64,000 bases of DNA from Kitasatospora sp. SUK 42. Its GTDB lineage: Bacteria; Actinomycetota; Actinomycetes; Streptomycetales; Streptomycetaceae. Each line of letters begins with the position of its first letter. The first letter of the stretch is position 1. Of this stretch, positions 42,777 to 64,000 are shown one piece after another. The stretch is from assembly GCF_015776785.2 (NCBI RefSeq), contig NZ_LFMD02000002.1, forward strand, positions 1,425,329-1,489,328, read 5' to 3'. A program made the position numbers and the translations under genes. A model generated the notes under the pieces. The model did no database searches, was not told where the DNA came from, and worked only from the letters and a program-made list of their open reading frames with translations.

Positions 42777-45700
42777 CTACACCGGCTGCGGCTCCAGGTC
42801 GCGGTTGATCCGCTTCCAGCCGCGCGCGGAGACCGTGTTGGGGTGCTCCTCGCCGAACTGCCGGATCAGCTCGGCGATCGACCGGGCGCGCAGTTCGGCG
42901 GCCTGGGTGTGCCGGCCGGCCGCGCGCAGGGTGATCGCCAGGTTGGCCTCGCAGGCCACCGCGTCCGGGTGCTGCGGGGTGTAGCGGTCGCACAGGCCCA
43001 TGTACGCGGCGCGGCCGAGCTGCTCGGCGAGCTCGGTCTGCCCGTTGTCGCCGTACGCGTTGGCCAGGTTGATCATCGCGTTGAGGGTGTACGGGTGCTC
43101 CGGCCCGACCGAGCTGGTCAGGCCCTCGACGGTGAGCCGGCCGCGTTCGATGGCGCCCGGGACGTCGCCGCTGCCGCGCAGGTAGATGCCGAGGTTGTTG
43201 GCGCAGGCCAGGGTGAACGGGTGCTCGTCGCCGAACAGCCGCCGGTGGCCCTCGAAGACGGTGGAGCAGAGGTCGCGGGCGGCCTCCTTGTCGCCGGAGG
43301 CGCTGTGGTCGGCGGCCAGGTTGAGCGCGCAGGCCAGCGCGTCGGGGGCGTCGGCGCCGTAGCGCTCCAGGTAGCGCTCGTAGGTCTCCTTGGTGATCCG
43401 GCGGGCCTCGGCGAGCTGGCCGATCCGGCGCAGCGAGACGGCCAGCGACTTGGCGTTGCGCAGGTTCTCCGGCAGGTCCGGGTCGAGCACGTCGCCGAGG
43501 TCGGAGGTGACCTCCTGGAGCAGGTCCACCGAGCCGCGGTAGTCGCCGAGTTCGCGCAGGTCGCGGGCCAGGTTGGACTTGGTGGACAGGGTGTAGGGGT
43601 GCCTGGGGCCGAGGACGGCGGTGCGCCGGTCGAGGGTCTCCTGGTCGAGTTCGCGGGCGGCCTCACTGTCGCCGACCAGCCGGTAGTCGATCGCCAGGTT
43701 GTTCGCCATGGAGAGCGTGCGCGGGTTGTCGTCGCCGAACAACTCGCGGAACTGCTCCAGGATTTCGCGGTCGAGGTCGAGGGCGGCCTGGAAGCGGCCG
43801 AGCGCCCTGCGATCGGCGCCGAGCGAGCCGGCCGTCATCAGGGTGTAGGGGTGGTGCTCGCCGAGCAGCACCTGCTGGCGTTCCAGGGTGGCCTCGTCGA
43901 GGGCCAGTGCCTCGGCGTAGTTGCCCTGGGAGCGCAGCACGTTGGCGAGCTGGAAGCGCAGCAGCAGGGTCTGCCGGTCGTCCTCGCCGAGCTTGCTGGT
44001 CCACTCCGCGTCCAGGGCGTGGCCGAGGTCGCGGGCGCGGTCGAGTTCGCCGCGCTTCCACAGGTAGCGGACGCGGTCGATGAGCAGTTGACGGGTGTCG
44101 GCCTCGTCGCAGTTGTGCGCCTTGGAGGGCGACAGGTGCGGCCAGATCTCGTCGAAGGCGGGCCAGTTGGCCGGGTCGTCGGTGTCGCCGAGGACGGGCC
44201 GGGCGCCGGTGAGGATGCGGTGCACCTCGTGGACGGCGATCTCCTGCTCGTCCTCGGTCATGCCGGCCCGGATCACCGCCTGGACGAGGCGGTGCACCTG
44301 GAAGCTGTTGCTGCCGGCGTCGACCTTGGCGAGCGCGTAGCGGCCGATCGCCTGGATCACCTTGCCCAGCATGAACTTGTCGCTGAGGTCGGCGTCGAAC
44401 CGCACCAGCGCCCGGATCATCTGGTCGCTGTAGAAGAGGTTCATCGAGATCGGCTCGGGCGCGAAGAAGGCGCACAGCTGGAGCAGCCGCACCGCCGCCG
44501 GGGACTGCTGGCGCAGCCGTCCGATCGACACGTTCCAGGTCGCGGCGACCGGGGTGGGGTAGTCGGCGGGGCGGCCGACGGCCAGGGCGCGGGCGGCCTC
44601 GGCGTGCAGCTGGCTGACGTAGGTGTCGACCGGGGTGCCGGTGGTGTCCAGCCAGGCGGCGGCCACCTCGACGGCGAGCGGCAGGTCGCCGACCGCCTCG
44701 GCGACCCGGTCGGCGTCCGGGCGGGAGAGGCTGCGGGCGCGCCGGCACAGGTGCTCGACGCTCTCGCCGCGGGTGAAGACGTCGACCTCCAGCGCCTCGG
44801 CGTGCCCGGTCCAGGCCTGGTTGCGGGAGGTGACCAGGATGTGGCCGGAGCCGCCGGGGAAGAACCGGCGGATCTCGGAGGGCTCGTCGGCGTTGTCGAA
44901 GATCAGCAGCCAGCGCGAGGTGGGCACGCCGCGGCGCAGCGCCTCCCGGGCGGCCTCGGCGGCCTCGGTGACGGAGTCGCCGACGCGCAGGCCGAGGCGG
45001 CGGGCGAGTTCGGCGAGCGCCGGGGCGACGAGTTCGGTCTGCTCGGCGTCGATCCACCAGACCAGGTCGTAGTCGGACATGAAGCGGTGGGCGTACTCCA
45101 GCGCCACCTGGGTCTTGCCGACGCCGCCGAGCCCGTACAGGGTCTGCGGGGTGGGCAGGACGGCCGCCATGCCGCCGCGCAGCTGGTTGCGCAGCTGCTC
45201 CAGGACGGCGGAGCGTCCGGTGAAGGAGGGGTTGCGCGGCGGGACGTCCCACACCGAGGGCTTGCTGCCGGGGAAGCGCGGGCCGTCGCTGGGTTCGTCG
45301 CCGAGCGCGACGTCGCTGCGGCCGAGCGCGCGCAGCAGGCTCTGCACGGACTGCGTCTCGTCGCGGCCGACCAGGTCGACCGGGTTGCGGTTGCTGAACG
45401 GCGCGGTGAGCCGGACGTCGCCGACCCGGACGGGCAGCAGCTGGCGGCGGGTGCCGGAGGGGTCGGAGCTGACCACCGACTCCCACAGCGCCCTGGCCTG
45501 CGGGGAGCGCTGGTAGGCGGGCGAGAGCACGGCGACGGTGCGGTACGCGGAGTCGATGCCGCGCTCGGTCTCCTCGCGCGGGTCGGTGCCGGCGCTGAGG
45601 TCGCGCGGCAGCACCCGGAAGCCGGCCCGGGTGAGCACCGACTCGATCCAGTCCGCCCACATCCGGTCCTCGGGCACGTAGGACAGGTAGAGGTCGGCGG

Positions 45701-46784
45701 GGACGGACGGGCGGCGGCGGGTGAAGGCGTCCACGTAGCGCAGCCGCACCTCCTCGTCCATCGGCGGGAGGCCGGGCGCCCGGCCCTCGGTGATGACGGA
45801 GGTGAGCCGTTCGCAGGCGGCCAGCATCGAGGTGGGGGTGCCGGTCTGGTCGCCGAAGGTGGCGAGGATCTCCTCGTAGGCGTAGAACGGCCGGTACGGG
45901 ATCTCCACCGAGCCCCAGTACTGGGCGAGTTCCTCGCCGCCCAGGCCGACGGGCAGGCCGTCGAAGCGGACCCGGGCGAGGGCGCGGCCGGCGTCCGCCT
46001 TCTCCTTCTCACCCTCGTCGATGCGCATCGGGACGGGCAGGATGCGGATGCCGCGCTCGCGGTAGCGGTCGTGGATGTGCTGGGCGATCCGGGAGGCGCC
46101 GTCGATGGACTGGTCGCTGAGGGTGAAGCAGACGACCAGGTCGTCGGGCATCTGGACGGTGCAGATCTCGGCGATGTCGGACAGGCCGGTGCGGGAGTCG
46201 ATCAGCACGTAGTCGTAGCGCCTGGCCATGTCGGCCTTGAGGGCGTCGAAGAACTGCCCACCGTCGAAGCGGTCGTAGAAGATGTCCCAGTCGAGGTGGG
46301 TGACGGCCTCGGAGTAGTCGCGGTTGAACTGCCCCGCGGAGAGGAAGTCCAGGCTGCCGCCGGCCGGGAAGTGCGGCCAGGAGAGCGAGAGCGCGTGCGG
46401 GTGCACCCGGGCGAAGTCCAGGTGCCAGCCCTCGGCGTGCTCGACCGGGCGCAGCGCCTCCTCCCGGTACTCGGCGATGAGGTCCATCATCCCGGTGGTG
46501 CCGGCGAGGGAGGCCGGGTCGAGGAAGGGGTGGAAGAACTTGGCGAGGCCCGGCGCCTCCAGGTCCCAGTCGACGGTGAGGACGCGGAAGCCGTTGGCGG
46601 CGAGGATCCAGGCGGTGTTGGCGAGGGCCATGGTGCGGCCGGTGCCGCCCTTGTACGAGTAGAAGGTGATGATCCGGCCGTTGCGGTCCTTCTCCGCGGC
46701 CTGCCGCTCGGCCTCGCGCTGGGCGGCGAGTTCGGCGGCGGTGAGGCCGCCGAGGCGGAGATTCCTGGTGCGGTTGTCGCTCAT
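42777..46784 (-). CDS. fxsT: FxsT: FXS-system STAND protein (MinD-like ATPase, TIR-like, NB-ARC, TPR)
   Basis: 1,335 residues. Domains in order: a MinD/ParA-type ATPase (about 36-300) with deviant Walker A KGGTGRTM at 45-52; a TIR-like domain (about 365-500, DLYLSYVPEDRMWADWIESV, VAVLSPAYQRSPQARALWES); an NB-ARC NTPase (about 535-850) with P-loop LYGLGGVGKTQVALEYAHRF and RWLLIFDNADEP; and about 400 residues of tandem tetratricopeptide repeats. This matches FxsT of the FxSxx-COOH system. Such STAND proteins switch between ATP- and ADP-bound states when the repeats sense a ligand. Its ATG overlaps the fxsC stop by four bases, so the two are coupled. No fxsA or fxsB lies beside this copy. Confidence 0.9.
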   Translation of the reverse strand: MSDNRTRNLRLGGLTAAELAAQREAERQAAEKDRNGRIITFYSYKGGTGRTMALANTAWILAANGFRVLTVDWDLEAPGLAKFFHPFLDPASLAGTTGMMDLIAEYREEALRPVEHAEGWHLDFARVHPHALSLSWPHFPAGGSLDFLSAGQFNRDYSEAVTHLDWDIFYDRFDGGQFFDALKADMARRYDYVLIDSRTGLSDIAEICTVQMPDDLVVCFTLSDQSIDGASRIAQHIHDRYRERGIRILPVPMRIDEGEKEKADAGRALARVRFDGLPVGLGGEELAQYWGSVEIPYRPFYAYEEILATFGDQTGTPTSMLAACERLTSVITEGRAPGLPPMDEEVRLRYVDAFTRRRPSVPADLYLSYVPEDRMWADWIESVLTRAGFRVLPRDLSAGTDPREETERGIDSAYRTVAVLSPAYQRSPQARALWESVVSSDPSGTRRQLLPVRVGDVRLTAPFSNRNPVDLVGRDETQSVQSLLRALGRSDVALGDEPSDGPRFPGSKPSVWDVPPRNPSFTGRSAVLEQLRNQLRGGMAAVLPTPQTLYGLGGVGKTQVALEYAHRFMSDYDLVWWIDAEQTELVAPALAELARRLGLRVGDSVTEAAEAAREALRRGVPTSRWLLIFDNADEPSEIRRFFPGGSGHILVTSRNQAWTGHAEALEVDVFTRGESVEHLCRRARSLSRPDADRVAEAVGDLPLAVEVAAAWLDTTGTPVDTYVSQLHAEAARALAVGRPADYPTPVAATWNVSIGRLRQQSPAAVRLLQLCAFFAPEPISMNLFYSDQMIRALVRFDADLSDKFMLGKVIQAIGRYALAKVDAGSNSFQVHRLVQAVIRAGMTEDEQEIAVHEVHRILTGARPVLGDTDDPANWPAFDEIWPHLSPSKAHNCDEADTRQLLIDRVRYLWKRGELDRARDLGHALDAEWTSKLGEDDRQTLLLRFQLANVLRSQGNYAEALALDEATLERQQVLLGEHHPYTLMTAGSLGADRRALGRFQAALDLDREILEQFRELFGDDNPRTLSMANNLAIDYRLVGDSEAARELDQETLDRRTAVLGPRHPYTLSTKSNLARDLRELGDYRGSVDLLQEVTSDLGDVLDPDLPENLRNAKSLAVSLRRIGQLAEARRITKETYERYLERYGADAPDALACALNLAADHSASGDKEAARDLCSTVFEGHRRLFGDEHPFTLACANNLGIYLRGSGDVPGAIERGRLTVEGLTSSVGPEHPYTLNAMINLANAYGDNGQTELAEQLGRAAYMGLCDRYTPQHPDAVACEANLAITLRAAGRHTQAAELRARSIAELIRQFGEEHPNTVSARGWKRINRDLEPQPV

Positions 46785-48211
46785 CGGTTTCCTCGTCCTC
46801 CCAAGGGCGCCATCCCGTCATCGGGGTCATCGCCGTCGTCACGGTCGTCACGGTCGGGGTCGTGGTCGGGATCGAGGCCGAACGGGTCCGGGCCGTAGGG
46901 CTCGACCCGGTGCCCGCCCTGCTCCCCGTTCGGCCCGTCCGCCCCGAACCCGTCGGGTCGGCGGAAGGCGCCCCGCAGGCTCGGGCGCGGCGCCGGGGGT
47001 TCCTCCGGCTCGGCTCTGGTGCGGCCCTCGAAGGCGTACTTGGCCTTCATCGCCGCCCGGGGCAGGGCGTCGTCGAAGTCCTCCAGGGTGTTCAGCCCGG
47101 TCGAGCGGGTCGGGCCGGTCGCGCCGAGGAAGCTCGGCCGGCTGGCGCGCCGGGTGATGCGCAGCGTCTGGTCGCTCAGCTCGGCGAGTTCGCCGCCGTC
47201 GGCGTCGCACTCGGGGTCGTCGGTGTTCCACGGTTCCAGGACGCTCACCCAGGTGGCGTCGCAGCGGTCGAAGCGGCGGACCAGTTCGCGGCGGCGCGGG
47301 TCGCGCAGCGCCCACCGGTCGAGCAGCAGCAGTCCGGGGGCCTCGGCGTTGCCCTCGATGATGGACTCGGCCTCGTCGTCGAACTCGTGCACGGTCGGCT
47401 GGAAACCCAACTGCCGCGCCAGGCGCACCGCGTGCTGCGCGATCGGCGACCCGGCCGGGCGGTAGGGGTGCCAGTCGGTGCGCCGGGCGCCGTAGAAGTC
47501 CGGGTTACGGTCCGACGGTACCTCGCCCTGGTGGTAGGCGAGTACGGAGATCCGCAGCTGCTTGGTCGGGGCGGTGACGTTGAACGCGCTGGGGAGGGTG
47601 TTGAAGTCCATCCGCCGCCCGACCGGGATCACCGTCTCCTCCGCCACCTGCACGATCCGCGCCGCCAGCCGGTGCACGGCCAGCTCGTAGGCGGAGCGGA
47701 AGTAGCTGAGCTTCATCAGCGCGTACAGGCCCTCGGTGGCGTAGTCGGGGCCGAAACTCGCATGGTTGAACTGCAGTTCACTGGCCACCGCGGGCAGCCG
47801 GTAGCGGCTCATCGGCGCCCACAGCACCGGGACGATGCCGCTGGTGCGCTCCGCGTCGATGGTCGCCGGGTAGACCGGGCGGCGGGTGAAGGCGTGCCAC
47901 TCCTGGCCGCACGGAACGCTGTTGAAGTACCGGGGCGAGTACAGCGGCACGAACACCCGGCAGGTCGACAACTCCCCGGACAGCCGGTCGGCCCACAACT
48001 CGCCCTGGTGCATGGACTCGTCCATGAACCCGACCGGCACCCCGGCCGGCACGGTGGTCAGCTGCAGCACGGCCTCGCAGAGGTCCCGGTACAGCTGCCG
48101 CACCCAGTGGTTCGGATCACCGGCCCCCCGCGCGCCGGCCTTCGGAGTGTGCGCGTAGGAGAGGAAGAAGTACGGCCGGGCCTCGTCCTCGTCCCAGCCA
48201 CGGTCGTTCAC
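46781..48211 (-). CDS. fxsC: FxsC: TIR-like protein of the FXS system
   Basis: 476 residues. An N-terminal TIR-like domain starts at once (ARPYFFLSYAHTP; VPVGFMDESMHQGELWADRL; CRVFVPLYSPRYFNSVPCGQ EWHAF). A second Rossmann-like part covers about 225-390 (LRISVLAYHQGEVPSDRN, LARQLGFQPTVHEFDDEAES). A disordered Arg/Gly/Asp-rich tail follows. This is the FxsC family found with FXS ribosomal-peptide loci. GTG 48211 has GGAGG five bases upstream and matches the family's short N-terminus. TIR-like domains can act as NAD-cleaving enzymes or scaffolds; no activity can be assigned here. It is coupled to fxsT. Confidence 0.88.
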   Translation of the reverse strand: MNDRGWDEDEARPYFFLSYAHTPKAGARGAGDPNHWVRQLYRDLCEAVLQLTTVPAGVPVGFMDESMHQGELWADRLSGELSTCRVFVPLYSPRYFNSVPCGQEWHAFTRRPVYPATIDAERTSGIVPVLWAPMSRYRLPAVASELQFNHASFGPDYATEGLYALMKLSYFRSAYELAVHRLAARIVQVAEETVIPVGRRMDFNTLPSAFNVTAPTKQLRISVLAYHQGEVPSDRNPDFYGARRTDWHPYRPAGSPIAQHAVRLARQLGFQPTVHEFDDEAESIIEGNAEAPGLLLLDRWALRDPRRRELVRRFDRCDATWVSVLEPWNTDDPECDADGGELAELSDQTLRITRRASRPSFLGATGPTRSTGLNTLEDFDDALPRAAMKAKYAFEGRTRAEPEEPPAPRPSLRGAFRRPDGFGADGPNGEQGGHRVEPYGPDPFGLDPDHDPDRDDRDDGDDPDDGMAPLGGRGNR

Positions 48212-48411
48212 ACGCGCCTCCCCCGGGCCCGTCGGCAACCTGGTTCCCGCAGCCCCCGTGCGGCGGGGCTTCAGTGTAGAAACGACTGACACCGCAATGG
48301 AATAGCACAACGACCCGCACGGATTGACATGACCGAAACGACGACCCCCGGGGGCCGTCATCCGCGATCCTGGTCATGAACCAGCCTAACTGCGCTCCTG
48401 GGAGGGCGACC

Positions 48412-53031: not shown

Positions 53032-53033
53032 CC

Positions 53034-53875: not shown

Positions 53876-53880
53876 ACGCC

Positions 53881-53963
53881 TGCGCAGGAAGTCGGCCAAG
53901 CCGACTTCCTGCGCACGAAGCCCGGGGGCAACGTCGCCGCTTCGGCGGGGCCGAAGCGGCGAC
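53881..53963. repeat. Double-hairpin repeat, copy A
   Basis: Two perfect hairpins. TGCGCAGGAAGTCGGC (53881-53896) pairs with GCCGACTTCCTGCGCA (53900-53915) over a 3-base loop. After 17 bases, GTCGCCGCTTCGGC (53933-53946) pairs with GCCGAAGCGGCGAC (53950-53963), again with a 3-base loop. The same two stems in the same order and orientation recur at 54,627-54,715, on the other side of the NUDIX gene. Confidence 0.9.
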
Positions 53964-53970
53964 GGGCGAC

Positions 53971-54012
53971 AAGGCCCCGCCCGCCCCTTCGCTGGGCCGG
54001 GCGGGGGCTTTC
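53971..54012 (+). terminator. Terminator-like hairpin after the GNAT gene
   Basis: AAGGCCCCGCCCG (from 53971) pairs with CGGGCGGGGGCTTT (to about 54012) with one mismatch and ends in TTT. It lies just beyond repeat copy A, between the convergent GNAT and NUDIX genes. Confidence 0.65.
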
Positions 54013-54026
54013 GCCGTCATGGCTCT

Positions 54027-54497: not shown

Positions 54498-54626
54498 GTG
54501 ATCAGCTCTCCTCAACCGGTAGGGCGGCGTTCCACACTGCATCGAAGCTCGCAGCATAGGTATCGAACAGCGCCCCCAGGCCTCCTGGGGGCGCGGGCCT
54601 GCTTCACCCTGCACACCGAGGCCGGG

Positions 54627-54715
54627 CTTCGTGCGCAGGAAGTCGGATCGGCCGACTTCCTGCGCACGAAGGGCTCTGAGCGACGTCGCCGCTTCGGCGG
54701 GGCCGAAGCGGCGAC
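54627..54715. repeat. Double-hairpin repeat, copy B
   Basis: The first stem is longer than in copy A: CTTCGTGCGCAGGAAGTCGG (54627-54646) pairs perfectly over 20 bp with 54652-54671. The second stem, GTCGCCGCTTCGGC (54685-54698) with GCCGAAGCGGCGAC (54702-54715), is identical to copy A, and the stems are similarly spaced. Copies A and B are direct repeats about 750 bases apart. Confidence 0.9.
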
Positions 54716-54745
54716 GGGCGACCAGAGGGTGGGGGCATCGGGTGG

Positions 54746-55849
54746 CTATGCGGGGTGGGGGGTGCGGAAGACGGTGGTGAGGAGTCGGTCGAGGGCCTTG
54801 GGGAACTCCTGGGCCGGGTCCGAGTCCGTGTCGCCGGTGGTCAGGCCGGCGGTGAGGGTCCTGGTGCCGTCGAAGGAGCTGATCATCAGGGCGCCGTAGC
54901 CGCCGGGGGCGCCGCCGTTGTGGTGGACGATGGTGCCGCCTTCGGGGCCGAGGTCCTGGACGAACAGGCCCAGACCGTAGCCGAGCATCCCGTGGGGCTT
55001 GCGCATCTCGTCGAGCAGCGGGGCGGGCAGGAGCCTGCCGCCGAGCAGGGCGGCGAAGAAGACTTGCAGGTCCCGGGTGGTCGAGATCATGTCTCCGGCG
55101 CCGACCAGCAGGGAGAGGTTCTGGCGGCTGACGTCGACGACCTTCCACTCCTCCCCGTCCTGGTAGCGGTAGTAGCCGTGGGCGTGCGGGCCGGGGATGT
55201 CCGGCGAGTCGCCGGGCACCACGGTGCCGTGCAGGCCGAGCGGTTGCAGGATGCGCCGCCGCATCTCCTCTGCGTACGGCCGGCCGGCAACCTGCTCGAT
55301 CAGCAGCACGGCCAGCGTGTAGTTGGTGTTGGAGTAGCTCTGGTCCGCCCCCGGCTCGAAGCGGGCCGGCTCGGACAGCGCGAACCGGACGAGTTCCTCG
55401 GGCCGGTAGCTGTGGAACCGGTTGTCCACCCACGGTTTGCCCACCGAGGGGAGCCCGGGCACGAACGTCCCGTCGGGGTCCAGTTCGCCGGTGCAGTTGT
55501 GGACGCCGCTGGTGTGCTGCAACAACATCCGCACGGTGATGCGCCCGTCCAGCCCGAACCCGGTCAGGTGGTCGGCCACCGGGGTGTCCAGCGTGATCGC
55601 GCCCTCGGCCACCAGGTGCAGCACCAGGGTGGCGACGAAGGTCTTGGTGGTGCTGCCGATCCAGAACTGCCCCTCCGTCGACGGCTTGGCGCTCCCGCCG
55701 AGCTCGTGCACTCCGGCGCTGCCAACCCACTCGCCGCGTTCGTCGCGCACCCGCAGCTGCACTCCGGCGAAGCCGGCGTCGACGAACTCCTGGGCGGCCT
55801 TCTGCAGTTCGGGGCGTTCCTGGGCCGCGTTGTGCTGGACGGTGCTCAT
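54746..55849 (-). CDS. Serine hydrolase of the beta-lactamase/DD-peptidase family
   Basis: 367 residues. The class C-type motifs are S66-x-x-K69 in IGSTTKTF, Y-x-N in DQSYSNTNYTLAVLL and H-x-G in VHHNGGAPGGYG. There is no signal peptide, so it is probably a cytoplasmic esterase or peptidase rather than a cell-wall enzyme. MLLQHTSGVHNCTG is a further family mark. ATG 55849 is followed by a polar N-terminus. It precedes a DUF4097 gene by 53 bases on the same strand. Confidence 0.88.
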   Translation of the reverse strand: MSTVQHNAAQERPELQKAAQEFVDAGFAGVQLRVRDERGEWVGSAGVHELGGSAKPSTEGQFWIGSTTKTFVATLVLHLVAEGAITLDTPVADHLTGFGLDGRITVRMLLQHTSGVHNCTGELDPDGTFVPGLPSVGKPWVDNRFHSYRPEELVRFALSEPARFEPGADQSYSNTNYTLAVLLIEQVAGRPYAEEMRRRILQPLGLHGTVVPGDSPDIPGPHAHGYYRYQDGEEWKVVDVSRQNLSLLVGAGDMISTTRDLQVFFAALLGGRLLPAPLLDEMRKPHGMLGYGLGLFVQDLGPEGGTIVHHNGGAPGGYGALMISSFDGTRTLTAGLTTGDTDSDPAQEFPKALDRLLTTVFRTPHPA

Positions 55850-55902
55850 GATCGTTCCTTCTCTCGCGGTGGTGGGGCCGGTTCGGTCGTGCCAGCCGGT
55901 GC

Positions 55903-56568
55903 TCAGAGGCTGCGGGCGGTGATGTCGCCGTGGGCGGTGGTCGCGTGGATGGCGAGCTCGGTCTCGCCGGTGTTCCGGAGCGCGTTGTGGATGCGGCCGT
56001 AGCCGGTGCCGGCGTCCATGGCGGCGGAGACGCCGCGGGCGGCGTCGACCTCGATCCGGCCCAGCTCGGTGCGCAGGGTGACGGTGCCGCGCACGGCCTC
56101 GGTGATGCGGATGTCGCCCTTCTGGGTGGTGATCTCGGCGGGGCCGCCGAGGCGGCCGACCGTGATGTCGCCGAGCTGGAGGGCGATCCGGGCGCCGGCG
56201 GTCTCGTCGAGCTTGACGGTGCCCTGCGCGGCCTCGTAGTCGACGTCGCCGAGGCGGCCGACGCCCCGGAGTTCGGCCATGGCCGCCTTCGCCTCGACCC
56301 GGGAGCCGGCCGGCAGCTGGACGGTCACCTCGACGGATCCCGAGCTGCCGAGGATCCGGTTCTTCGGCTCCGGGGTCTCGATCCGCAGGACGCCGTCGGC
56401 GTAGGTGACCTCGATCCGCTCGGCCGCCTTCACGTCGCGGCTCTTCGTGGCGTCGGCGGGCAGAACCTCGACCGTGGTGTCGGCCCGGTCGGCGGCGATG
56501 AGGCGGATGTGCCCGGCGGGGATGTCCAGGACGGCGGTGACGGGGGCGGTGGTGTCGAACTTCTGCAT
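55903..56568 (-). CDS. DUF4097-family beta-strand repeat protein
   Basis: 221 residues of short repeating beta-strands: IPAGHIRLIAADRADTTVEV, VEVTVQLPAGSRVEAKAAMA, LQLGDITVGRLGGPAEITTQ, TELGRIEVDAARGVSAAMDA. This is the DUF4097/adhesin-like beta-helix family; function is unknown and it has no signal peptide. ATG 56568 follows GGAGACC. The divergent HTH regulator across a 244-base region rich in GTTGC repeats may control it. Confidence 0.85.
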   Translation of the reverse strand: MQKFDTTAPVTAVLDIPAGHIRLIAADRADTTVEVLPADATKSRDVKAAERIEVTYADGVLRIETPEPKNRILGSSGSVEVTVQLPAGSRVEAKAAMAELRGVGRLGDVDYEAAQGTVKLDETAGARIALQLGDITVGRLGGPAEITTQKGDIRITEAVRGTVTLRTELGRIEVDAARGVSAAMDAGTGYGRIHNALRNTGETELAIHATTAHGDITARSL

Positions 56569-56704
56569 CGCGGTCTCCCTCTTCGGTGGCGGCGAGCCCC
56601 TCGGCCCGGTGCTTTCTGATGACAGAAACGCTACGTTGCGTTCATGACTCTGGCAACCAATTCGTTGCGCACAATCACCATCAATGCAGGTCACTGGCGA
56701 TAAA

Positions 56705-56760
56705 TCATTGCAACGGTCTCAGGCGTAACGCAACGAGCGAAGCCCAGATCGTTGCAATGA
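56705..56760. promoter_or_regulatory. Inverted repeat TCATTGCAACG in a divergent promoter
   Basis: TCATTGCAACG (56705-56715) and CGTTGCAATGA (56750-56760) are perfect 11-bp complements. Related GTTGC/GCAAC half-sites also occur around 56,634, 56,653, 56,662 and 56,730. The cluster lies 50-180 bases upstream of the HTH regulator and between it and the DUF4097 gene, which fits an autoregulated operator array. Confidence 0.65.
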
Positions 56761-56812
56761 ACTGGACGTTAACGCTATGCTGGGGCGACCGCACGCCACG
56801 AAGGAGACCGCG

Positions 56813-57547
56813 ATGCCGGGAGGCAGACTCACCCAGCAGGAACGCCAGCAGATCGCGCTGGGACTGGCCGACGGCCTCGCCTACGCGGAGATCGCCAGGC
56901 GCCTCGACCGCCCGACCTCCACCATCACGCGCGAGGTCATGCGCAACGGCGGCCCCACCGCCTACCGCGCCGACCTCGCCCAGCGCGCCACCTCGCACCG
57001 CGCCCAGCGCCGCAGGCAGAGCGAGGCCAAGGACCCGGCCGCCTCCCCGCAGGCCCACGGGCGCGACGCCGAGGCGGTACGCGCGTACGAGGAGGTGTTC
57101 ACCACCGTCCTCATGCAGTCGGGCACGCCCAAGATGATGGCCCGGGTGCTGTCCTGCCTCTTCACCACCGACGCGGGCAGCCTCACCGCCGCCGAACTCG
57201 CCCAGCGTCTCCAGGTCAGCCCGGCGTCCGTCTCCAAGGCGGTCGCGTACCTGGAGAGCCAGGGCCTCGTCCGCCGGGAACGCGACGAGCGCCGCCGCGA
57301 GCGCTACGTCGTCGACGACGACGTCTGGTACCAGTCGATGATGGCCAGCGCCCACGGCACCGCCCAACTCGCCGTCATCGCACGGCAGGGCGTCGGCGTC
57401 CTCGTCCCGGACACCCCGGCGGCCGCCCGCATGGAGAACGTCGCCCGCTTCCTCGACTTCGTCTCCGAGGCCATCGCCCGCGCCGCCGACCAGGCCCGCG
57501 AGGTCCTCCACACCAAGCCCGAGCCGGCCCTCAACGGCGGCGGGTGA
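56813..57547 (+). CDS. Regulator fusing an IS30-type HTH (HTH_38) to a MarR/GbsR-like domain
   Basis: 244 residues. Residues 5-60 (RLTQQERQQIALGLADGLAY, ARRLDRPTSTITREVMRNGG, YRADLAQ) match the HTH_38 domain at the N-terminus of IS30 transposases. Residues ~85-200 are a MarR/GbsR-like winged helix (LTAAELAQRLQVSPASVSKA, LVRRERDERRRERYVVDDDV). The DDE transposase core is absent, so this is a captured DNA-binding domain, not a transposase. It probably binds the GTTGC repeats upstream. It converges on the acetyltransferase gene of the FXS locus with only a 21-base gap. The ATG follows AAGGAG. Confidence 0.85.
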   Translation: MPGGRLTQQERQQIALGLADGLAYAEIARRLDRPTSTITREVMRNGGPTAYRADLAQRATSHRAQRRRQSEAKDPAASPQAHGRDAEAVRAYEEVFTTVLMQSGTPKMMARVLSCLFTTDAGSLTAAELAQRLQVSPASVSKAVAYLESQGLVRRERDERRRERYVVDDDVWYQSMMASAHGTAQLAVIARQGVGVLVPDTPAAARMENVARFLDFVSEAIARAADQAREVLHTKPEPALNGGG

Positions 57548-57568
57548 CCGCGCCCCGGGGGAGAGGAA

Positions 57569-58411
57569 TCAGGCGAGGCCCCGGCGGAGGATGTGGGTGG
57601 CGAGGTCCACGGCCTCCCGGACGGGGATGAGGTGGCACTCGGCGGAGCCTATGCGGGTGGTGGTGACGCCGGTGGCGACGCGCAGGACCCGGGCCCCGAG
57701 ATCGGCGAAGTGGAGATCGTCGAGGTAGGGGGCCCTGAAGGTGATCCAGCCCTCCGGCCCCCGGCACCGGAACTCGCTGATGCGGACGTCGGGCATCCGC
57801 AGGTCCGCGAGGTGGAAGGCGGTGAACCTCGCCATCGGGGCCCCGAGCATCAGCACCCGGGCGTCCAGGTCGTACAGCCGGCCGAGCGGGCTGTCCGGGC
57901 CGAGGTGGGAGGTGAGGGCGTGGTGCGCGGTGATCTCCCGCGCCAGGGGGCCGAGGGCCGCCCAGGAGGTCTGCGGGTGGCTGCTGCGCAGGGCGCCGGG
58001 ACGGGTGCGGATCTCCTCGGAGAGGGCGCCCATGGTCGGGGAACAGGGAGTGCCGACCGGGTCGTAGGGCGGCATCCCGTCGAGGTAGGCGGCGACCTCC
58101 CTCGGGGAGAGTCCGGCGATGGCGGCCTTATGGATCCGCGAGGTCGCCGAGTTCTCGGGGTTGGCGGTGTAGGCGACCAGCGTCCCTTCACTGCCCAGGG
58201 TGTCGAGCAGGGCGTCGGCCACCCCGGCCGCGCCGCCGGCCACCCAGCCGAGGGCGCGCAGGGACGCCTGGACGTGGAGCACCGTTCCCGGCCGGACGCC
58301 GAGTTCGGCGAGTCCTCTGGCCAACTGCCCGGTGGCGAGGGTGGTCCGGGCGCGGGCGGCACCAGTGAGGACGGCACCGGTGCGGGCGGTACGAGGCAGC
58401 ATGGTCGTCAT
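57569..58411 (-). CDS. AAC(3)-family acetyltransferase of the FXS locus
   Basis: 280 residues of the aminoglycoside N(3)-acetyltransferase fold. Family marks are HVQASLRALGWVAGGAAGV, RSSHPQTSWAALGPLAREIT and GPDSPLGRLYDLDARVLMLG, then FTAFHLAD. AAC(3) enzymes use acetyl-CoA to modify an amine. Here it starts seven bases after fxsB, and AAC(3)-like genes recur in FXS loci, so it may acetylate the peptide product or an associated molecule rather than an antibiotic (inference). Whether it confers aminoglycoside resistance cannot be judged from sequence. ATG 58411 is chosen because the longer frame overlaps fxsB. Confidence 0.87.
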   Translation of the reverse strand: MTTMLPRTARTGAVLTGAARARTTLATGQLARGLAELGVRPGTVLHVQASLRALGWVAGGAAGVADALLDTLGSEGTLVAYTANPENSATSRIHKAAIAGLSPREVAAYLDGMPPYDPVGTPCSPTMGALSEEIRTRPGALRSSHPQTSWAALGPLAREITAHHALTSHLGPDSPLGRLYDLDARVLMLGAPMARFTAFHLADLRMPDVRISEFRCRGPEGWITFRAPYLDDLHFADLGARVLRVATGVTTTRIGSAECHLIPVREAVDLATHILRRGLA

Positions 58412-58418
58412 ACCGGCA

Positions 58419-60818
58419 TCAGGCCCCCGTCGCACGGACGCGGCTGTGCTTCTCCCGCATCCGGTCGGCGGTCTGCTCGGCGGCCCTCGGCACCGGAACG
58501 GCGAGCCACGGGGTGAGGCTCTCCCGCATCCCCTCGGCGAACCGCAGCCCGACGCCCGTCAGCGCCCCCGACTCGACCAGCCGCTCGACCGCCTCCGCCG
58601 TGTACCGCCGCCAGAGCGCGAACTGCGCCCGCGCCCGGTCGGCGGCCTCAGCGGGAAGCCCGTCGTACGCGGCCGTCCGCGTGCCCCAGTACTCGGTGAC
58701 CGCCAGGTGCGCGTACGTGCCCTGGAGCAGACCCTCCAGCGGGCGCGGATCCGGCCGCCAGGGCGCGAAGTACAGCTGCTCGTCGGCCCGGTCGTAGAGG
58801 TCGAACAGGTCCAGGACGGCCCCCAGCTTCACGTGCTGGAACTCGTGCGCCAGCAGCAGCGCCAGCGTCGGCGCGGTGGCCGGCCGCGCGATGCCGACCG
58901 CCCCGAACGCCTGCCGCGCCGCCGAGCTGACGTCCCGTCCGGCCGGGCCGGGCCGCAGCGGGGTCACCGTCGACAGCCCCGCCCGGATGCCCTCCGCGTA
59001 CCCGGGCAGGTCGCGCCCGAGCAGCTCCCAGGCCTCGCGCAACGCGCCCGTCCAGCCCAGCAGTTCGCCCTCCGGAAGCCGCCCGGCCACCGGGTGGTCG
59101 TGGCTGTCCCGCAGCGGGTCGAGGTCCTCCAGCGCGACCGTCCAGCCCCCGGCCAGCCGGACCCGCCGCAGCGGCTGGTCGTAGGAGGTGAACACCGACC
59201 CGTCCTGGGCCCGCACCTCGAACCCGTCCGCCAGGCCGGTGACCACCGCTTCCCCGTCCGGTACGGCGATCCGCCCGAGCGTCGGCAGGTGCAGCCACCC
59301 GTCCCGCACCGGCACCGCGACCGCGTCCCCGCGCCCGGCCCGCACCGCCGCCGCGGCGGCCAGCGCGGCCAGCGGCCCGAGCCCGACGGAGAGGTCCCCG
59401 GCGAGCCGCCGGGCCGCCCAGGCGCGGGCGTACGGGTGCGCGAGGACGGCGTCCACGGCGGCGGGCGCACCCGCGTCGAGCGCCGACAGCAGGCCCCACG
59501 CCTCCGCGCTTCCCTGCCCGGAGGCGTCCCAGGCGGCGGCCAGCATCGCCCGGGTGAGCGCGAGTTGGGAGCGCGCGAGCGCGGAGACGGTGTCCGCTCC
59601 CCCGTACCCCCGGGCCAGTTCGTCGAGTTGCGCCGGAGTGAGCGCGGCCGGCAGCAGCGACTCCCCGCCCTGCGCTGGGATCGCCGCCGGAACGGCGGTG
59701 GAACCACCGTTCTCCGCAATGCCGTTGATGAGCTTCATGAGGTCACCGCAGTAGACGGAGGGATTGTCGAAGCCAGTGTCCGCCCGGTACCGGTGGGCGT
59801 ACAGCCCGCCACCACAGGAGCGGACCACCGGGCAGGCCCGGCAGGCCTCGCTCAGTCCGGCCAGTCCGGACTGCCGGGCCATGATGCCGGGGTGACGGGC
59901 GAGGTCGTCCAGGCTGTGCGCGAAAACGTTCATTCCGGTGGCGGGCGCGCCGTCGTACGCCGTCTTCAGGCTGTCGGCCTGCTCGAACTCCCCGTCCGTC
60001 TCCAGGACGGCGAGGTCCGAGGGCTCCAGCCCGAGCGACTCGGTGAGGCTGGAGAAGCCCCGCAGCGTCCGGTGCACGGATTCGAAGGTCCGGACGGCGA
60101 ACGGCCGCCCGTCCGATTCCCACAGCCTGTGGACGGTGAGCAGCCAGTCGGCGTACGGGGTCTCCCCGCCGCCCGGGAGCCGCTTCGGCGGCTCCTCCCA
60201 GGTGGCGTGCGGCAGCAGGAAGTCGACGGCCGGGGGCTCCAGTTCGGCCAGCGCCCGGTAGACCGCGGCCGGGTCGTTCTCGATGTCGACGGTGCACAGC
60301 AGCCCGGCGAACAGGTGCCGGTACTCGGGCGTGCTCAGCAGCTCGACCGCCCGCAGGACCTGGGGGTGGCTGCTGCGCCCGTCGGCGAAGCGCCGGTGGC
60401 GGTCGTTGGCGGCCCTGTCGCCGTCCAGCGAGATGCCGACCTTCACACCCAGTTCGGCGAAGAGTTCGCAGTAGGCACGGGAGAGTTGGACGCCGTTGGT
60501 GTGGATCCGCAGGTCCAGCGCGCAGCCGGGGGGCAGTGCCGCCCGGAGCGCCTCGGCGGCGTGGCGCAGACGGTCCGGGCCGGCGAGCAGGGGCTCTCCC
60601 CCGTGCAGGACGACCCGGACAACGGGCAGCCGGTGGGCGGCGGCGTGTTCGCCGATCCGCTCGGCGACGGTGTTCAGGACTTCTTCACCGATGACCTTGG
60701 GACGTCGCCGCCAACTGGTGTCGGCGTGCTCGTACACGTAGCAGTGATCGCAGGCGAGATCACACCGGCTGTGGACCTTCACGACGAATTGGGTGAGAGG
60801 TCGCGGAGTTGGCGTCAT
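58419..60818 (-). CDS. fxsB: FxsB: cyclophane-forming radical SAM/SPASM maturase with HEXXH extension
   Basis: 799 residues. The radical SAM domain has C19-x3-C23-x2-C26 (SRCDLACDHCYVYE) and LHGGEPLL. A SPASM-type auxiliary cluster region follows, with Cys326, 329, 335 and 357 (CRACPVVRSCGGGLYAHRY). The C-terminal ~430 residues form the HEXXH-motif extension with H658-E-F-Q-H662 intact. FxsB enzymes cross-link the Phe of FxSxx precursors to the third residue, making a three-residue cyclophane. The fxsA precursor is 40 bases upstream and AAC(3) seven bases downstream: one operon. No clear ribosome-binding site precedes the ATG. Confidence 0.93.
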   Translation of the reverse strand: MTPTPRPLTQFVVKVHSRCDLACDHCYVYEHADTSWRRRPKVIGEEVLNTVAERIGEHAAAHRLPVVRVVLHGGEPLLAGPDRLRHAAEALRAALPPGCALDLRIHTNGVQLSRAYCELFAELGVKVGISLDGDRAANDRHRRFADGRSSHPQVLRAVELLSTPEYRHLFAGLLCTVDIENDPAAVYRALAELEPPAVDFLLPHATWEEPPKRLPGGGETPYADWLLTVHRLWESDGRPFAVRTFESVHRTLRGFSSLTESLGLEPSDLAVLETDGEFEQADSLKTAYDGAPATGMNVFAHSLDDLARHPGIMARQSGLAGLSEACRACPVVRSCGGGLYAHRYRADTGFDNPSVYCGDLMKLINGIAENGGSTAVPAAIPAQGGESLLPAALTPAQLDELARGYGGADTVSALARSQLALTRAMLAAAWDASGQGSAEAWGLLSALDAGAPAAVDAVLAHPYARAWAARRLAGDLSVGLGPLAALAAAAAVRAGRGDAVAVPVRDGWLHLPTLGRIAVPDGEAVVTGLADGFEVRAQDGSVFTSYDQPLRRVRLAGGWTVALEDLDPLRDSHDHPVAGRLPEGELLGWTGALREAWELLGRDLPGYAEGIRAGLSTVTPLRPGPAGRDVSSAARQAFGAVGIARPATAPTLALLLAHEFQHVKLGAVLDLFDLYDRADEQLYFAPWRPDPRPLEGLLQGTYAHLAVTEYWGTRTAAYDGLPAEAADRARAQFALWRRYTAEAVERLVESGALTGVGLRFAEGMRESLTPWLAVPVPRAAEQTADRMREKHSRVRATGA

Positions 60819-60858
60819 GGTCGATCGGATTCAGCGGAGCCGACGTCGGGTCGGCCGA

Positions 60859-61056
60859 TCAGATGGAGGAGTTGAAGGCGGCGACCGGAACGCCGGCTCC
60901 GGTGTCGGGGAGGGCGCGGCGGAGCCTGGCGGCGAGTTCCTCCGCGCCCAGTCGGGCGAGGTCGTCCAGCGACGGCCGGTCGTCGCCCTGAGCCTGCGGA
61001 GCCTGCTGAGGCGACGTCAGTTCAGTGCGGGGAATGGTGTCCAGTGCGGGTGTCAT
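60859..61056 (-). CDS. fxsA: FxsA: FxSxx-COOH cyclophane RiPP precursor peptide
   Basis: 65 residues, starting MTPALDTIPRTELTSPQ and ending VPVAAFNSSI. The C-terminus F61-N62-S63-S64-I65 fits the FxSxx-COOH signature exactly. The probable cross-link joins the Phe61 ring to the beta-carbon of Ser63. The leader contains an acidic helical segment (SLDDLARLGAEELAARLRRA) that likely binds FxsB. GGAAGAG precedes ATG 61056. The upstream in-frame extension has no family resemblance. There is no obvious export signal, so the product may stay in the cell or need a separate protease. Confidence 0.93.
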   Translation of the reverse strand: MTPALDTIPRTELTSPQQAPQAQGDDRPSLDDLARLGAEELAARLRRALPDTGAGVPVAAFNSSI

Positions 61057-61099
61057 GTTCGATTCTCTTCCGCGAAGGGGGTTAGAGAGAAGCACCGCC

Positions 61100-61111
61100 G
61101 GGTATATACCC
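61100..61111. promoter_or_regulatory. GGGTATATACCC palindrome upstream of fxsA
   Basis: A perfect 12-bp palindrome centred 50 bases upstream of the fxsA ATG. Its TATATA core is exceptional in this GC-rich DNA and could be a promoter -10 element, an operator, or both. The 225-base gap between the FxsT-like gene and fxsA holds no other visible feature. Confidence 0.45.
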
Positions 61112-61281
61112 CGGCTTGGTCGCAAGAGTACTGCGCACGGGCAGGTCGCGACGCTCCCTTACAGAGCCCTAACTGCCCACTACCCCCTGCGGGCTGCGGC
61201 GTCTCGCCAAAAGTTCACCCGTCCAGCGGTCGCGCGAGGGCACTCGACCGGCGCACAGGATCCTACGAGGGCCGGGCTTGA

Positions 61282-64000
61282 TCACACCGGCGGCGCCTCC
61301 ACGAAGATGTCCACCCGCCCGGAAGCACCGGCCCCGTCACCGGCCCCGTCACCGACACCGCCACCGGCCCGGCCGAGCGCGAGGTTGCCGAACGCCGCCC
61401 GGGAGTCGGGGTGGTCCGGCCCCAGCGACTCCGCCAGCACCTCCGCGGCCCGCTCGTCCAGCTCCCGAGCACCGGCCTGATCGCCCACGGCCGTCAGCGA
61501 GTTGGCGTGGTTCAGCAGCGCCGCCCCGACGTACCGGTGCCGCTCCCCCAACTGCGCCCGCAGCCCCTCCAGCACCCGCCCGGACAGTGCCGCGGCCTCC
61601 TGCGCGCGGCCGTCCCGGCGCAGCAGCACCGCGAGGTTCCCGGCGGCGATCAGGGTGGTCGGGTACTCCTCGCCGAGGTGGGCCCGGTGGTATTCGAACA
61701 CCGCCCGGGCCAGCTCGACCGCGCGCCCGTTCTCGCCGAGCGCGGCGAGGTCGACGGCGAGGTTCCCGGCGGCGGCCGCGGTCTCCGGGTGGTCGGCCCC
61801 GAACCGGGCCAGCAGCCGGCGGTGCGCCTCCTCGTCGGCGGCCCGGGCCTCCTCGTACCGGCCGAGCCGCAGCAGCGCGGCACCGAGGTGCCGCAGACCG
61901 CGCAGGGTGCCGTCGTGGTCCTCGCCGTAGCGCGCGCGGGAGCGCTCGACGGTGTCCGCGAGTGCGGCCCGCGCCTCCTCGTACCGCCCGGCCTCGCGCA
62001 GGGCGCGGCCCCGGTTGAGTTCGGAGATGAGGGTGTACAGGTCGTCCTCGCCGAGCACCGACCGCTGGCGGGCCATGGCGGTCGAGTGGCCTTCGACGGA
62101 GTCGCCGAGGTCGCCGGCCAGGAAGTCGGAGACGGCCAGGTTGTTGAGGCTCATCATGGTGCGCGGGTGGTGCGGCCCGAGGACCCGCTCGGCGGCCTCC
62201 AGCGTCCGCCGGTCGAACGCCTGCGCCTCGGAGTAGCGGCCGAGTTGACGCAGGTCTCCGCCGAGTCCGGCGGCGGCGGCGATGGTGTGCAGGTGGTCGG
62301 GGCCGAGCAGGTCGGTCAGCCGCTCCCACGCCTCCCGGTCGGTGCGGTACGCCTCCTGCGCCGCGCCCTGGAGCCGCAGCACGTTGCCGAGTTCGACCTG
62401 GAGCGTCAGCGCGGGGAGCTCCCCCTCGCCCCAGTGCGCCAGCGCCCGCCCGGCGAGTTCGCGGGCGGCCTCCAGCAGCCCCCGGTGGCGCAGGTAGCGG
62501 ACCGAGGCGGTGATCCACCGCCGCACCTGCGGATCGGCGCTCTCCACCGCGCCGGACGGCCCCAGGTGGGGCAGCAGCGCCGCGAACCGGGGCCAGTCCT
62601 CCGTCCGGTCCGGGTCGCCGGAGCCGGTCAGCGCCAGCGCGCCGTGCACGGCGGCCCGGACGGCCGGCCGGTCGGCCTCGGCCACCTGGTCCCGCAGCAG
62701 CGCCTGGACGATCCGGTGCACCCCGAGCGTGCCGCCGCCCTCCGCGTCGTAGCGGACCAGGCCGTACTGGTTGACGGTCCGCAGGATCTCCCCGACCGCC
62801 ATCCGCTCGTCCTCGCCCTGCGGCGGCCTGATCGCCCGGACGGCCGGTTCGCTGTAGAACAGCTCGACGGGGATGGCGTCCGGCCCGAGGAAGCCGCACA
62901 GTTCCAACAGCCGCATCGCCGGGGCGTTGACGCGGCGCAGGTCGGCGCCCGCGATCCGGGCGGTGGCGGCGGTGGCGGTGGAGTACTCGCCGGGAACGGG
63001 CCGGTCCAGCACCTCGGTGAGCGCCTCGCCCAGCATGTGCAGGTAGGTGGCGGCCGGCATCGGCGTCTCCTGCAGCCACCGCGCGGCCTGGCCGACCGCG
63101 AGCGGGAGGTCGCCGAGCAGTTCGGCGATGCGGTCGGCCTCGACCTGCCGCATCGCGGGGTTGAACCGCCGCATCAGCCGGACGCTCTCGGCCCGGTCGA
63201 ACACCGTGACCTCCACGCGGCCGGGGTGCCTCGCCCAGCGCCGGTTGCGCGAGGTCACCAGCACGTGCCCGTCGGCCGTCCCCGCGGGCAGCCAGGGGGT
63301 CAGGCGGTCCGGGTCCTCGGCGTTGTCGTAGACCAGCAGCCAGCGCCCGTACGGCTGCCCCCGGTCGAGGTGGCGCAGCAGGCCGGCGGCGGCCCGCTGG
63401 ACGTCCTGGTCGGCGGGCAGCCCGAGCTCGGCGGCGAGGTCGGCGAGCTGCTGCGGGACACCGGCCGGCTCCTCGGCCCGGATCCACCACACGACGTCGT
63501 ACGCGGCCGCGAAGCGGTGGGCGTACTCGGCGGCGGTCTGCGACTTGCCGACCCCTCCCATGCCGTACAGCATCTGGACGGAGCGGGCCCGGCCGGGAGT
63601 CGTGAAGCCGTCCCGGAGGCGGTCGAGCAGCCTCCCCCGGCCGGTGAAGGCCGGGTCGCGCGGCGGCAGGGTGTGCACCACCGGGCGGCTTCCGGGGAAG
63701 CGGGCGGGCGGCGGCGGGGGCTCGTCCTCGGCCCCGACCCAGCGCCCGGCACCGGGCGGCGGGCCGAGCAGCTCGAACAGCCGGGACTCCGCCAGCTCCG
63801 CCGGGCAGCCGGCCAGTTGGACCGCCGAGCGGTCCGCGACCGGCCAGCCGTCGAACGGCTCCCCGGCCTCCACCGCCCCCGCCGCCTCCCCGTCGAGCGC
63901 CTCCCCGTCGAGCGGCTCCGCCTCCAGCGACACCGCCAGCAGCGCGCCGCCCTCCCCCGCACCGAGCCGGCGCCACAGCTCGCCCGCCCTCGGGAACGCC
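61282..64000 (-). CDS. FxsT-like STAND/TPR protein (5' end beyond the window)
   Basis: The frame is open to the right edge; an in-frame GTG at 63933 is not the real start. Residues upstream of it (FPRAGELW, then GGALLAVSLEAEP) align with the end of the TIR-like domain in the complete FxsT at 42,777 (SPQARALW, RRQLLPVRVGD). The NB-ARC P-loop follows (LYGMGGVGKSQTAAEYAHRF), then RWLLVYDNAEDPDRL, and about 400 residues of TPRs (LGPHHPRTMMSLNNLAV type). It ends in a Gly/Ala-rich tail and VDIFVEAPPV. It is 225 bases upstream of fxsA on the same strand, so this is the FXS locus's own FxsT, with fxsC possibly off the edge. Confidence 0.88.
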   Translation of the reverse strand, partial: AFPRAGELWRRLGAGEGGALLAVSLEAEPLDGEALDGEAAGAVEAGEPFDGWPVADRSAVQLAGCPAELAESRLFELLGPPPGAGRWVGAEDEPPPPPARFPGSRPVVHTLPPRDPAFTGRGRLLDRLRDGFTTPGRARSVQMLYGMGGVGKSQTAAEYAHRFAAAYDVVWWIRAEEPAGVPQQLADLAAELGLPADQDVQRAAAGLLRHLDRGQPYGRWLLVYDNAEDPDRLTPWLPAGTADGHVLVTSRNRRWARHPGRVEVTVFDRAESVRLMRRFNPAMRQVEADRIAELLGDLPLAVGQAARWLQETPMPAATYLHMLGEALTEVLDRPVPGEYSTATAATARIAGADLRRVNAPAMRLLELCGFLGPDAIPVELFYSEPAVRAIRPPQGEDERMAVGEILRTVNQYGLVRYDAEGGGTLGVHRIVQALLRDQVAEADRPAVRAAVHGALALTGSGDPDRTEDWPRFAALLPHLGPSGAVESADPQVRRWITASVRYLRHRGLLEAARELAGRALAHWGEGELPALTLQVELGNVLRLQGAAQEAYRTDREAWERLTDLLGPDHLHTIAAAAGLGGDLRQLGRYSEAQAFDRRTLEAAERVLGPHHPRTMMSLNNLAVSDFLAGDLGDSVEGHSTAMARQRSVLGEDDLYTLISELNRGRALREAGRYEEARAALADTVERSRARYGEDHDGTLRGLRHLGAALLRLGRYEEARAADEEAHRRLLARFGADHPETAAAAGNLAVDLAALGENGRAVELARAVFEYHRAHLGEEYPTTLIAAGNLAVLLRRDGRAQEAAALSGRVLEGLRAQLGERHRYVGAALLNHANSLTAVGDQAGARELDERAAEVLAESLGPDHPDSRAAFGNLALGRAGGGVGDGAGDGAGASGRVDIFVEAPPV

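Follow-up and report, generated by a model that had tools for sequence, protein, structure and literature searches.

A short reading frame in Kitasatospora sp. SUK 42 that ends in the residues FNSSI, just upstream of a gene for a radical SAM protein, raises three linked questions: whether it encodes a genuine peptide precursor, what chemistry is performed on its tail, and which protein reads the product. The frame lies in a stretch of 64,000 nucleotides, here called the window, whose numbering is used throughout. A first-pass annotation had predicted a single C-terminal cyclophane of Phe, Asn and Ser with a mass loss of 2 Da, the leader being retained and the tail serving as an intracellular ligand, for example for the TPR repeats of the neighbouring FxsT protein. 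The analysis presented here bears out the ring in kind, argues for a second modification at or beside it, and points to a different pair of genes as the likely partners of the peptide.

The FxsA2 precursor

The gene, fxsA2 (60859..61056, minus strand), starts with ATG and encodes 65 residues ending in VPVAAFNSSI. As noted at first reading, Phe61 is the only aromatic residue in the translation, which contains no Tyr, Trp or His, and it stands fifth from the C-terminus. The start codon is preceded by a Shine–Dalgarno-like element, GGAAGAGAA (61063..61071, minus strand), which, in the three genus loci compared, is the same in L141 and L147 and differs by one base in L169. Across the six frames of the 64-kb window, fxsA2 is the sole frame ending in F-x-S-x-x before a stop codon, which argues against a chance ORF. 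The ATG of fxsB follows 40 nt downstream. A consensus scan of positions 57000-64000 detected no sigma-70-type promoter or terminator, a consensus that says little for such an organism.

An FxSxx ORF immediately precedes fxsB in 78 of the 81 loci compared, which comprise the studied locus and those of 80 named genomes, the highest-ranking 80 among 346 relatives. FxsB, FxsC and FxsT are all encoded in three Herbidospora loci (L113, L116 and L128), but no such ORF adjoining fxsB was recognised there. The nearest named relatives, among the matches listed, are Streptomyces sp. FH025 and Kitasatospora. In the 78 tails the residue in the middle of the putative ring is Asn (53), Gln (23) or Thr (2). 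In the tails of relatives, whose alignment was a check proposed in the first-pass annotation, Phe, the Ser at +2 and the final Ile are invariant in 61/61 loci of the genus, across which the Ser codons differ synonymously.

The family profile TIGR04268 scores FxsA2 at 25.0 bits against a cut-off of 28, with the match extending through the last profile position. Just two of eight FxsA relatives tried pass this cut-off, and one of the six others gives no match of any kind, so the cut-off misses members such as FxsA2. By score FxsA2 falls outside the SjiA precursor subfamily, NF040585 (21 bits, cut-off 75). We conclude that fxsA2 is a genuine, widely conserved FxsA precursor of the FxsABCT (FxSxx-COOH) triceptide system, a real gene of a known type. 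FxSxx-COOH triceptides are reportedly the subject of work by Nguyen (2020), and actinobacterial maturases of the FxsB kind of work by Phan and Morinaka (2022). The FXS triceptides as a group (FxsA/FxsB, including MscB and SjiA/SjiB; TIGR04268, TIGR04269 and NF040585) resemble FxsA2 in having a C-terminal F-x-S-x-x beside an FxsB maturase. The studied system differs in the low score of FxsA2 against the SjiA subfamily and in a genome complement of two precursors and two FxsC–FxsT pairs with one FxsB.

FxsB and the expected modification

The maturase gene fxsB (58419..60818, minus strand) encodes 799 residues, a fusion of a radical SAM/SPASM region (about residues 8-368) and an aKG-HExxH region (about residues 390-776) that bears the motif H658-E-F-Q-H662. 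The protein scores 582.7 bits against TIGR04269 (cut-off 370) and 168.0 bits against TIGR04267, which describes the HExxH domain (cut-off 40), and its 182.7 bits against NF040587, the model of the inactivated form, fall below the cut-off of 225. The HExxH domain matches PDB entries 22nu and 22ob in sequence (phmmer, E 1.3e-82). A predicted model of FxsB (mean pLDDT 81.7, pTM 0.58, 26 sequences in the structure job) aligns with 22ob, entitled "crystal structure of SjiH-Ni", with Z 48.7 and rmsd 2.0 over 387 residues at 44% identity, with the ChlB radical SAM domain 9gmc at Z 43.0, and with the ChlB HExxH domain 8s5f at Z 28.6 and rmsd 3.0 over 306 residues; the fold search was informative for these two domains and little beyond. 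SjiB, of which SjiH is a domain, and ChlB/ChlH share the radical SAM plus aKG-HExxH architecture of FxsB. The second half of FxsB is thus an intact fused aKG-HExxH oxygenase domain of the SjiH/ChlH type. It had been overlooked at first reading, together with a second fxsA gene and a second fxsC–fxsT pair.

Both halves of the maturase are well kept among relatives. Of the loci that could be assessed, 58 of 60 in the genus and 79 of 80 in the 81-locus set retain an intact HExxH motif, counts that omit L184 and L098, whose sequence stops within fxsB. The three Cys of CxxxCxxC are retained in 61/61 genus loci and in 81/81 loci, and FxsB scores above its cut-off in 60/60 other genomes of the genus (61/61 with the studied genome).

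The FxsB family is catalogued as IPR026335. For MscB, assigned to IPR026335, a review describes the joining of Phe C4 to Ser C-beta (PMC11002830). The three-residue Phe–Ser cyclophane is already published for the FxsB family and is not new; for FxsA2 it would follow by analogy. One ring at Phe61-Asn62-Ser63, as first proposed, is what the placement of FxsB in TIGR04269 (583 bits) and the MscB precedent predict, and that proposal was right in kind. The net change of −2 Da attached to it fares less well. Since FxsB retains an intact HExxH domain, a mass change of about +14 Da (−2 +16; +13.98 Da would be the net value) is to be expected, and not −2 Da, so that the mass prediction was probably incomplete. 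The first-pass annotation had held that the lack of a −2 Da change at this site would refute its structure, a rule which, given an expectation of +14 Da, would reject a correct one.

The placement of the added oxygen can be considered in the light of known targets. In its accessible part, one report names four HExxH targets established before it, His, Asp, Phe and Gln, and with Pro these form the known hydroxylation targets of aKG-HExxH enzymes (PMC13060819). In the available text of another, ChlH acts on His and Asp, and the HExxH enzymes of that study on Gln and Asn (PMC12636437). By elimination across these two partly accessible sources, Phe hydroxylation was probably observed with the fused enzymes. 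The candidate oxidation sites in FxsA2 would rank with Phe61 C-beta first, followed by Ala60 and Asn62.

Covariation of Ala60 with the HExxH domain

The residue that precedes the ring Phe varies with the state of the oxygenase domain. In loci with a fused FxsB, Ala fills this position in 112 of 120 with HExxH intact and in one of 73 with HExxH dead, and Thr or Ser does so in one of the 120 and in 58 of the 73, the intact loci having been picked largely by similarity to the studied FxsB and the dead loci coming mostly from one genus of the family. A check of all 193 states against alignment columns brought up no conflict: 120 were intact and 64 dead, and nine lacked the column and had no HExxH in frame. 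The set used 220 of 231 loci, 184 of them non-identical, with 13 class-wide loci added, and 193 non-identical fused loci were kept; the 89 class-wide loci (L281-L369) contributed to the count only where a fused FxsB was new to the set and came with an FxsA. Loci without an FxsA candidate were omitted (L113, L116, L128, L241, L244, L251, L262, L273, L274, L300 and L304).

When independence was simulated on a tree of the FxsB radical SAM region, the association of HExxH with Ala before Phe gave P 0.00075 (FastTree) and 0.0008 (IQ-TREE), and that with Ala two residues before Phe gave 0.003 and 0.002, respectively. The fourth tail residue (Ser64 in FxsA2) tracks HExxH weakly (P 0.04 with FastTree, 0.03 with IQ-TREE), and the Asn or Gln in the middle of the ring does not (0.18 and 0.14). 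Seven traits were simulated; the Ala result holds after correction for seven, yet the evolutionary events are few, HExxH changing state only about five times on the tree. Because of this small number of changes, an independent-pairs sign test, in which 3.2 of 4 pairs agree and none oppose, falls short of significance.

Individual losses illustrate the pattern. A curated form that has lost HExxH scores above cut-off in 67 of 394 genomes in a family-wide search. In two genus loci (L146 and L153) and one Streptomyces locus (L099) the HExxH residues are lost and the radical SAM Cys retained; the VAA before Phe is gone from the corresponding tails (EKG, AGA and EGS) and FxS is kept. Among the paralogous FxsA1 peptides described below, Ala precedes Phe in 12/12 loci that have their own separate HExxH protein and in 0/4 without one, the tail of L157 being taken from its duplicate L058. 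Where FxsB and HExxH are encoded by separate genes (48 loci within L310-L369, with FxsA recognised in 13), 12 of these 13 tails have Gly ahead of Phe. Two class-wide loci have arrangements of their own. L337 (G509:C23) encodes FxsB and, beside it, a precursor with repeated GNFNSFI motifs, possibly giving several rings per peptide, and the surrounding 4 kb or so yielded no HExxH gene; L326 (G645:C57) carries two divergent FxsB genes, one fused to HExxH and one accompanied by a separate HExxH gene.

Eight loci with HExxH intact lack Ala before Phe, and have P, P, K, K, L, G, R and S instead. The loci with P, P and L are the three genomes of the genus without an FxsT2 orthologue (tails VSPFNSAI, VSPFDSAI and VALFNSGI), which probably form one clade and were counted as one event. 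Their lack of FxsT2 means that Ala60 could instead serve in recognition by the receptor.

The tracking of HExxH by Ala60 narrows the second modification to Ala60-Phe61, and on comparison of sequences it points to this pair, more than to Asn62, as the place that is oxidised or as the element by which that place is recognised. There is a precedent for such reasoning: in the accessible text of PMC13060819, a Pro found only with an HExxH gene proved to be its target. The covariation of Ala60 with HExxH is the new result of this analysis; a dependence on Ala60 was not found in the literature searched, outside which lie the subscription papers on SjiB and ChlB.

Gene order and candidate receptors

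In the genus the genes follow the order pdxH, an optional fxsA1-fxsC1-fxsT1(-fxsB2-fxsH), fxsA2, fxsB, a gene for an AAC(3)-like N-acetyltransferase, fxsC2 and fxsT2, with pdxH opening the site in 59 of 61 loci and the other two lying on short contigs. The acetyltransferase gene (57569..58435, minus strand; PF02522, 203 bits) overlaps the end of fxsB and is matched in 56/61 genus loci. FxsA2 lacks Lys, so N-acetylation would be possible only at the N-terminus, either of the peptide or of a released core. Further along, fxsC2 (46781..48361, minus strand) encodes a TIR-like protein with a Cys-Gly-Gln-Glu-Trp motif (NF040588, 203.7 bits; TIGR04276, 131.7 bits; TIR_2), and fxsT2 (42777..46784, minus strand) a protein of 1335 residues with MinD-like, TIR, NB-ARC and TPR regions (NF040586, 1110 bits). 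In TIR NADases the Glu of this domain is catalytic, and in FxsC, counting from tblastn alignment columns, it is aligned as Glu in every copy (68/68, and 85/85 with FxsC2 as the query).

No fxsA or fxsB of its own accompanies fxsC2-fxsT2 in the window, and synteny shows that the pair was originally the downstream half of the operon of fxsA2 and fxsB and has been displaced from it. fxsC2 lies less than 1 kb from the acetyltransferase gene in 40/61 genus loci, and 58/61 genomes of the genus encode an orthologue of FxsT2 that is at least 68% identical. In the studied genome about 9 kb of other genes (48362-57568) part the acetyltransferase gene from fxsC2; by family search they include Sco1979-type regulator, beta-lactamase-like and MarR-like proteins.

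On the other side of fxsA2 is fxsT1 (61282..64000, minus strand; NF040586, 813.5 bits), which shares its strand with fxsA2 and stops 225 nt ahead of it. The window holds the C-terminal 905 of its 1323 residues, the gene running beyond the window end; the full ORF (L012:4611-8582) encodes MinD-like, TIR-like, NB-ARC and TPR domains, with a TIR_2 match below the Pfam cut-off. All four FxsC and FxsT proteins score over their family cut-offs, as befits membership of FxsABCT. fxsT1 belongs to the optional cassette fxsA1-fxsC1-fxsT1, found in 26/61 genus loci and accompanied by fxsB2 and fxsH in 12. Its precursor gene, fxsA1, lies upstream of fxsC1 at about L012:10074-10283 (about 66745-66954 in window numbering, beyond the window end), some 5.7 kb upstream of fxsA2, and encodes 69 residues with the tail MRFSSAI. 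FxsA1 matches no Pfam or NCBIfam family and is absent from the list given by a TIGR04268 search of its own genome, in which 150 of 507 candidates were scored; its putative assignment draws on the tail, the place before fxsC1 and the relatives.

Equivalents of fxsA1 precede fxsC1 in 16 of the 26 cassette loci, the studied one included, and none was found in five more distant cassettes of the 26 (FxsT 41-46% identical in the best piece). The notion that FxsA1 ends exactly at FxSxx only in the absence of FxsB2 was discarded, as three of 12 FxsB2-bearing loci also end there. Paralogues with residues past FxSxx (FQSALELR, for example) occur in L161, L162, L166, L168, L170, L173, L178 and L190, and these extra residues imply that a fixed C-terminus is not retained in the FxsB2 branch.

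The suggestion that the adjacent FxsT, now FxsT1, is the receptor becomes doubtful when its cassette, present in 26/61 loci, is set against FxsT2, present in 58/61 genomes as part of a syntenic ancestral pair. Gene order and conservation make FxsC2/FxsT2 the likely ancestral partner pair of fxsA2-fxsB, and the receptor first named was probably the wrong paralogue.

Leader processing, export and distribution

Gly-Gly leader cleavage was considered and rejected: GG occurs within the last 60 residues in just 16/61 genus loci, at −16 in 12 of them. No signal peptide is apparent from reading the FxsA2 sequence. Among 12 conserved clusters of neighbouring proteins no exporter or peptidase was recognised, except for an MFS-like protein (21 loci) of the flanking chromosome; this survey took predicted proteins of at least 90 aa in clusters present in at least 12 of 81 loci, one sequence of each being judged by eye. 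The original observation that the locus has neither a Gly-Gly site nor a dedicated protease or exporter therefore holds across relatives, GG being unconserved (16/61) and no exporter or peptidase partner being recognised in the 81 loci.

Searches of 50,697 phage records for FxsB and of 72,556 plasmid records for FxsA gave no matches, in keeping with a system resident in the chromosome. Against the PADLOC 2023 anti-phage catalogue FxsA2, FxsC1 and FxsC2 gave no matches, FxsT1 and FxsT2 matched PDC-M28B through the MinD-like part alone, and FxsB matched pVip alone at 35 bits. By these comparisons, the Fxs proteins appear to have no specific match to an anti-phage defence system in that catalogue.

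A proposed pathway and its alternatives

Read jointly, the evidence favours, with a probability of about two in three, a core FxsABCT precursor that acquires a Phe–Ser ring, is oxygenated by the HExxH domain at or by that ring, and acts as an intracellular ligand for FxsC2/FxsT2. The two-domain maturase FxsB would use the conserved leader of FxsA2. Its radical SAM/SPASM half would close the Phe61(C4)-Ser63(C-beta) ring, as reported for the family, and its SjiH-type aKG/Fe HExxH half would then oxygenate the ring or its immediate neighbour, the likeliest position being Phe61 C-beta, and Ala60 would be the small residue that the HExxH active site requires. The product would probably not leave the cell and would serve the NLR-like FxsC2/FxsT2, a TIR protein and a MinD-TIR-NB-ARC-TPR ATPase, as a ligand or C-terminal tag; it would not be intended primarily for FxsT1, whose cassette has its own precursor in FxsA1. 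The sole basis for placing the product inside the cell is that no exporter, protease or GG signal was recognised, and a role for the candidate product as an intracellular ligand is plausible.

Other fates for the oxygen are less well matched by the tails. It is doubtful that the HExxH half oxidises Asn62 within the ring to beta-hydroxy-Asn. Enzymes of the aKG-HExxH kind do act on Asp, His and Gln, PosC hydroxylated Asn in a peptide variant (PMC12636437, in its accessible part), and Asn or Gln fills the middle of the ring in 113/120 loci with HExxH intact; yet Asn or Gln is also kept in 51/73 loci with HExxH dead, an association no stronger than shared ancestry would give, and the clearest changes with HExxH loss fall on the residues before Phe. 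Asn62 is accordingly not favoured as the covarying site. Slightly more doubtful is the idea of a self-sufficient FxsB whose HExxH half would oxidise Ala60 itself, either to a Ser-like residue or with a PosC-style cut freeing a capped cyclophane that would control the NLR-like TIR/STAND pair; the Thr or Ser of lineages without the oxygenase would then be a genetically written substitute. It is unlikely that the HExxH half serves to remove the leader, cutting at Ala60 to release a short cyclophane, with the remnant of Ala60 as its cap, as a signal or toxin. According to the available text on PosC, this related HExxH enzyme cuts the peptide backbone at Ala, with Gly partly permitted and Ser, Gln and similar residues blocking cleavage (PMC12636437), and release of a C-terminal peptide by a metallopeptidase was proposed in the accessible part of Kaur et al. 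2020 (PMC7159879). The tracking of HExxH by Ala, the Gly of 12/13 loci where HExxH is a gene of its own, and a neighbourhood in which no other protease was recognised would all suit such a cut. The closest structure to the FxsB HExxH domain is SjiH, however, and a 2024 study by Morishita of a fused radical SAM and HExxH protein is said to name beta-hydroxylation in its title, and not cleavage.

Two further readings concern the destination of the peptide. That FxsA2 keeps its leader, undergoes no change beyond a −2 Da cyclophane and is read by the TPR repeats of FxsT1 is distinctly unlikely. The closeness of fxsT1 on the same strand and its TPR, NB-ARC and MinD-like domains speak for it, as does the association of an AP-ATPase with TPRs with such peptide systems in the accessible text of PMC7159879. 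Set against this are the intact HExxH domain of FxsB, the contrast between a cassette in 26/61 loci and fxsA2-fxsB in 61/61, with no FxsT1 found beside fxsA2 in 35/61, and the fxsA1 that the cassette carries for itself. A secreted antibiotic or morphogen, with exporter and protease encoded elsewhere in the genome, is highly improbable: FxsA2 is a small RiPP precursor and many RiPPs rely on remote proteases, but no conserved exporter or conserved GG site was recognised, the precursor is a core gene of the genus regularly paired with TIR/NB-ARC/TPR genes, and the phage and plasmid records searched hold no FxsB and no FxsA, respectively.

Biological meaning

The accessible part of Kaur et al. 2020 (PMC7159879) describes peptide modules of actinobacterial conflict systems in which, as here, an FxSxx peptide is found with a radical SAM-SPASM protein, an HExxH protein and an AP-ATPase with MinD-like and TPR regions, and the studied locus matches their standalone version. 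Such peptides were proposed there as a toxin or signal, and the zincin-like HExxH protein was read as a metallopeptidase, whereas later work on relatives describes an aKG oxygenase. The biological role of FXS triceptides is not stated in the accessible portions of the literature searched.

FxsB occurs in 61/61 genomes of the genus, in the company of NB-ARC/TPR ATPases and of TIR proteins whose candidate catalytic Glu is conserved, a combination that points towards a resident switch inside the cell and not to a sporadic antibiotic. The optional fxsA1-fxsC1-fxsT1 beside the core fxsA2-fxsB-fxsC2-fxsT2 provides a natural test of peptide–receptor pairing. Finally, a single residue whose identity follows the state of the oxygenase domain in FxsB makes the second modification testable and predicts mutants.
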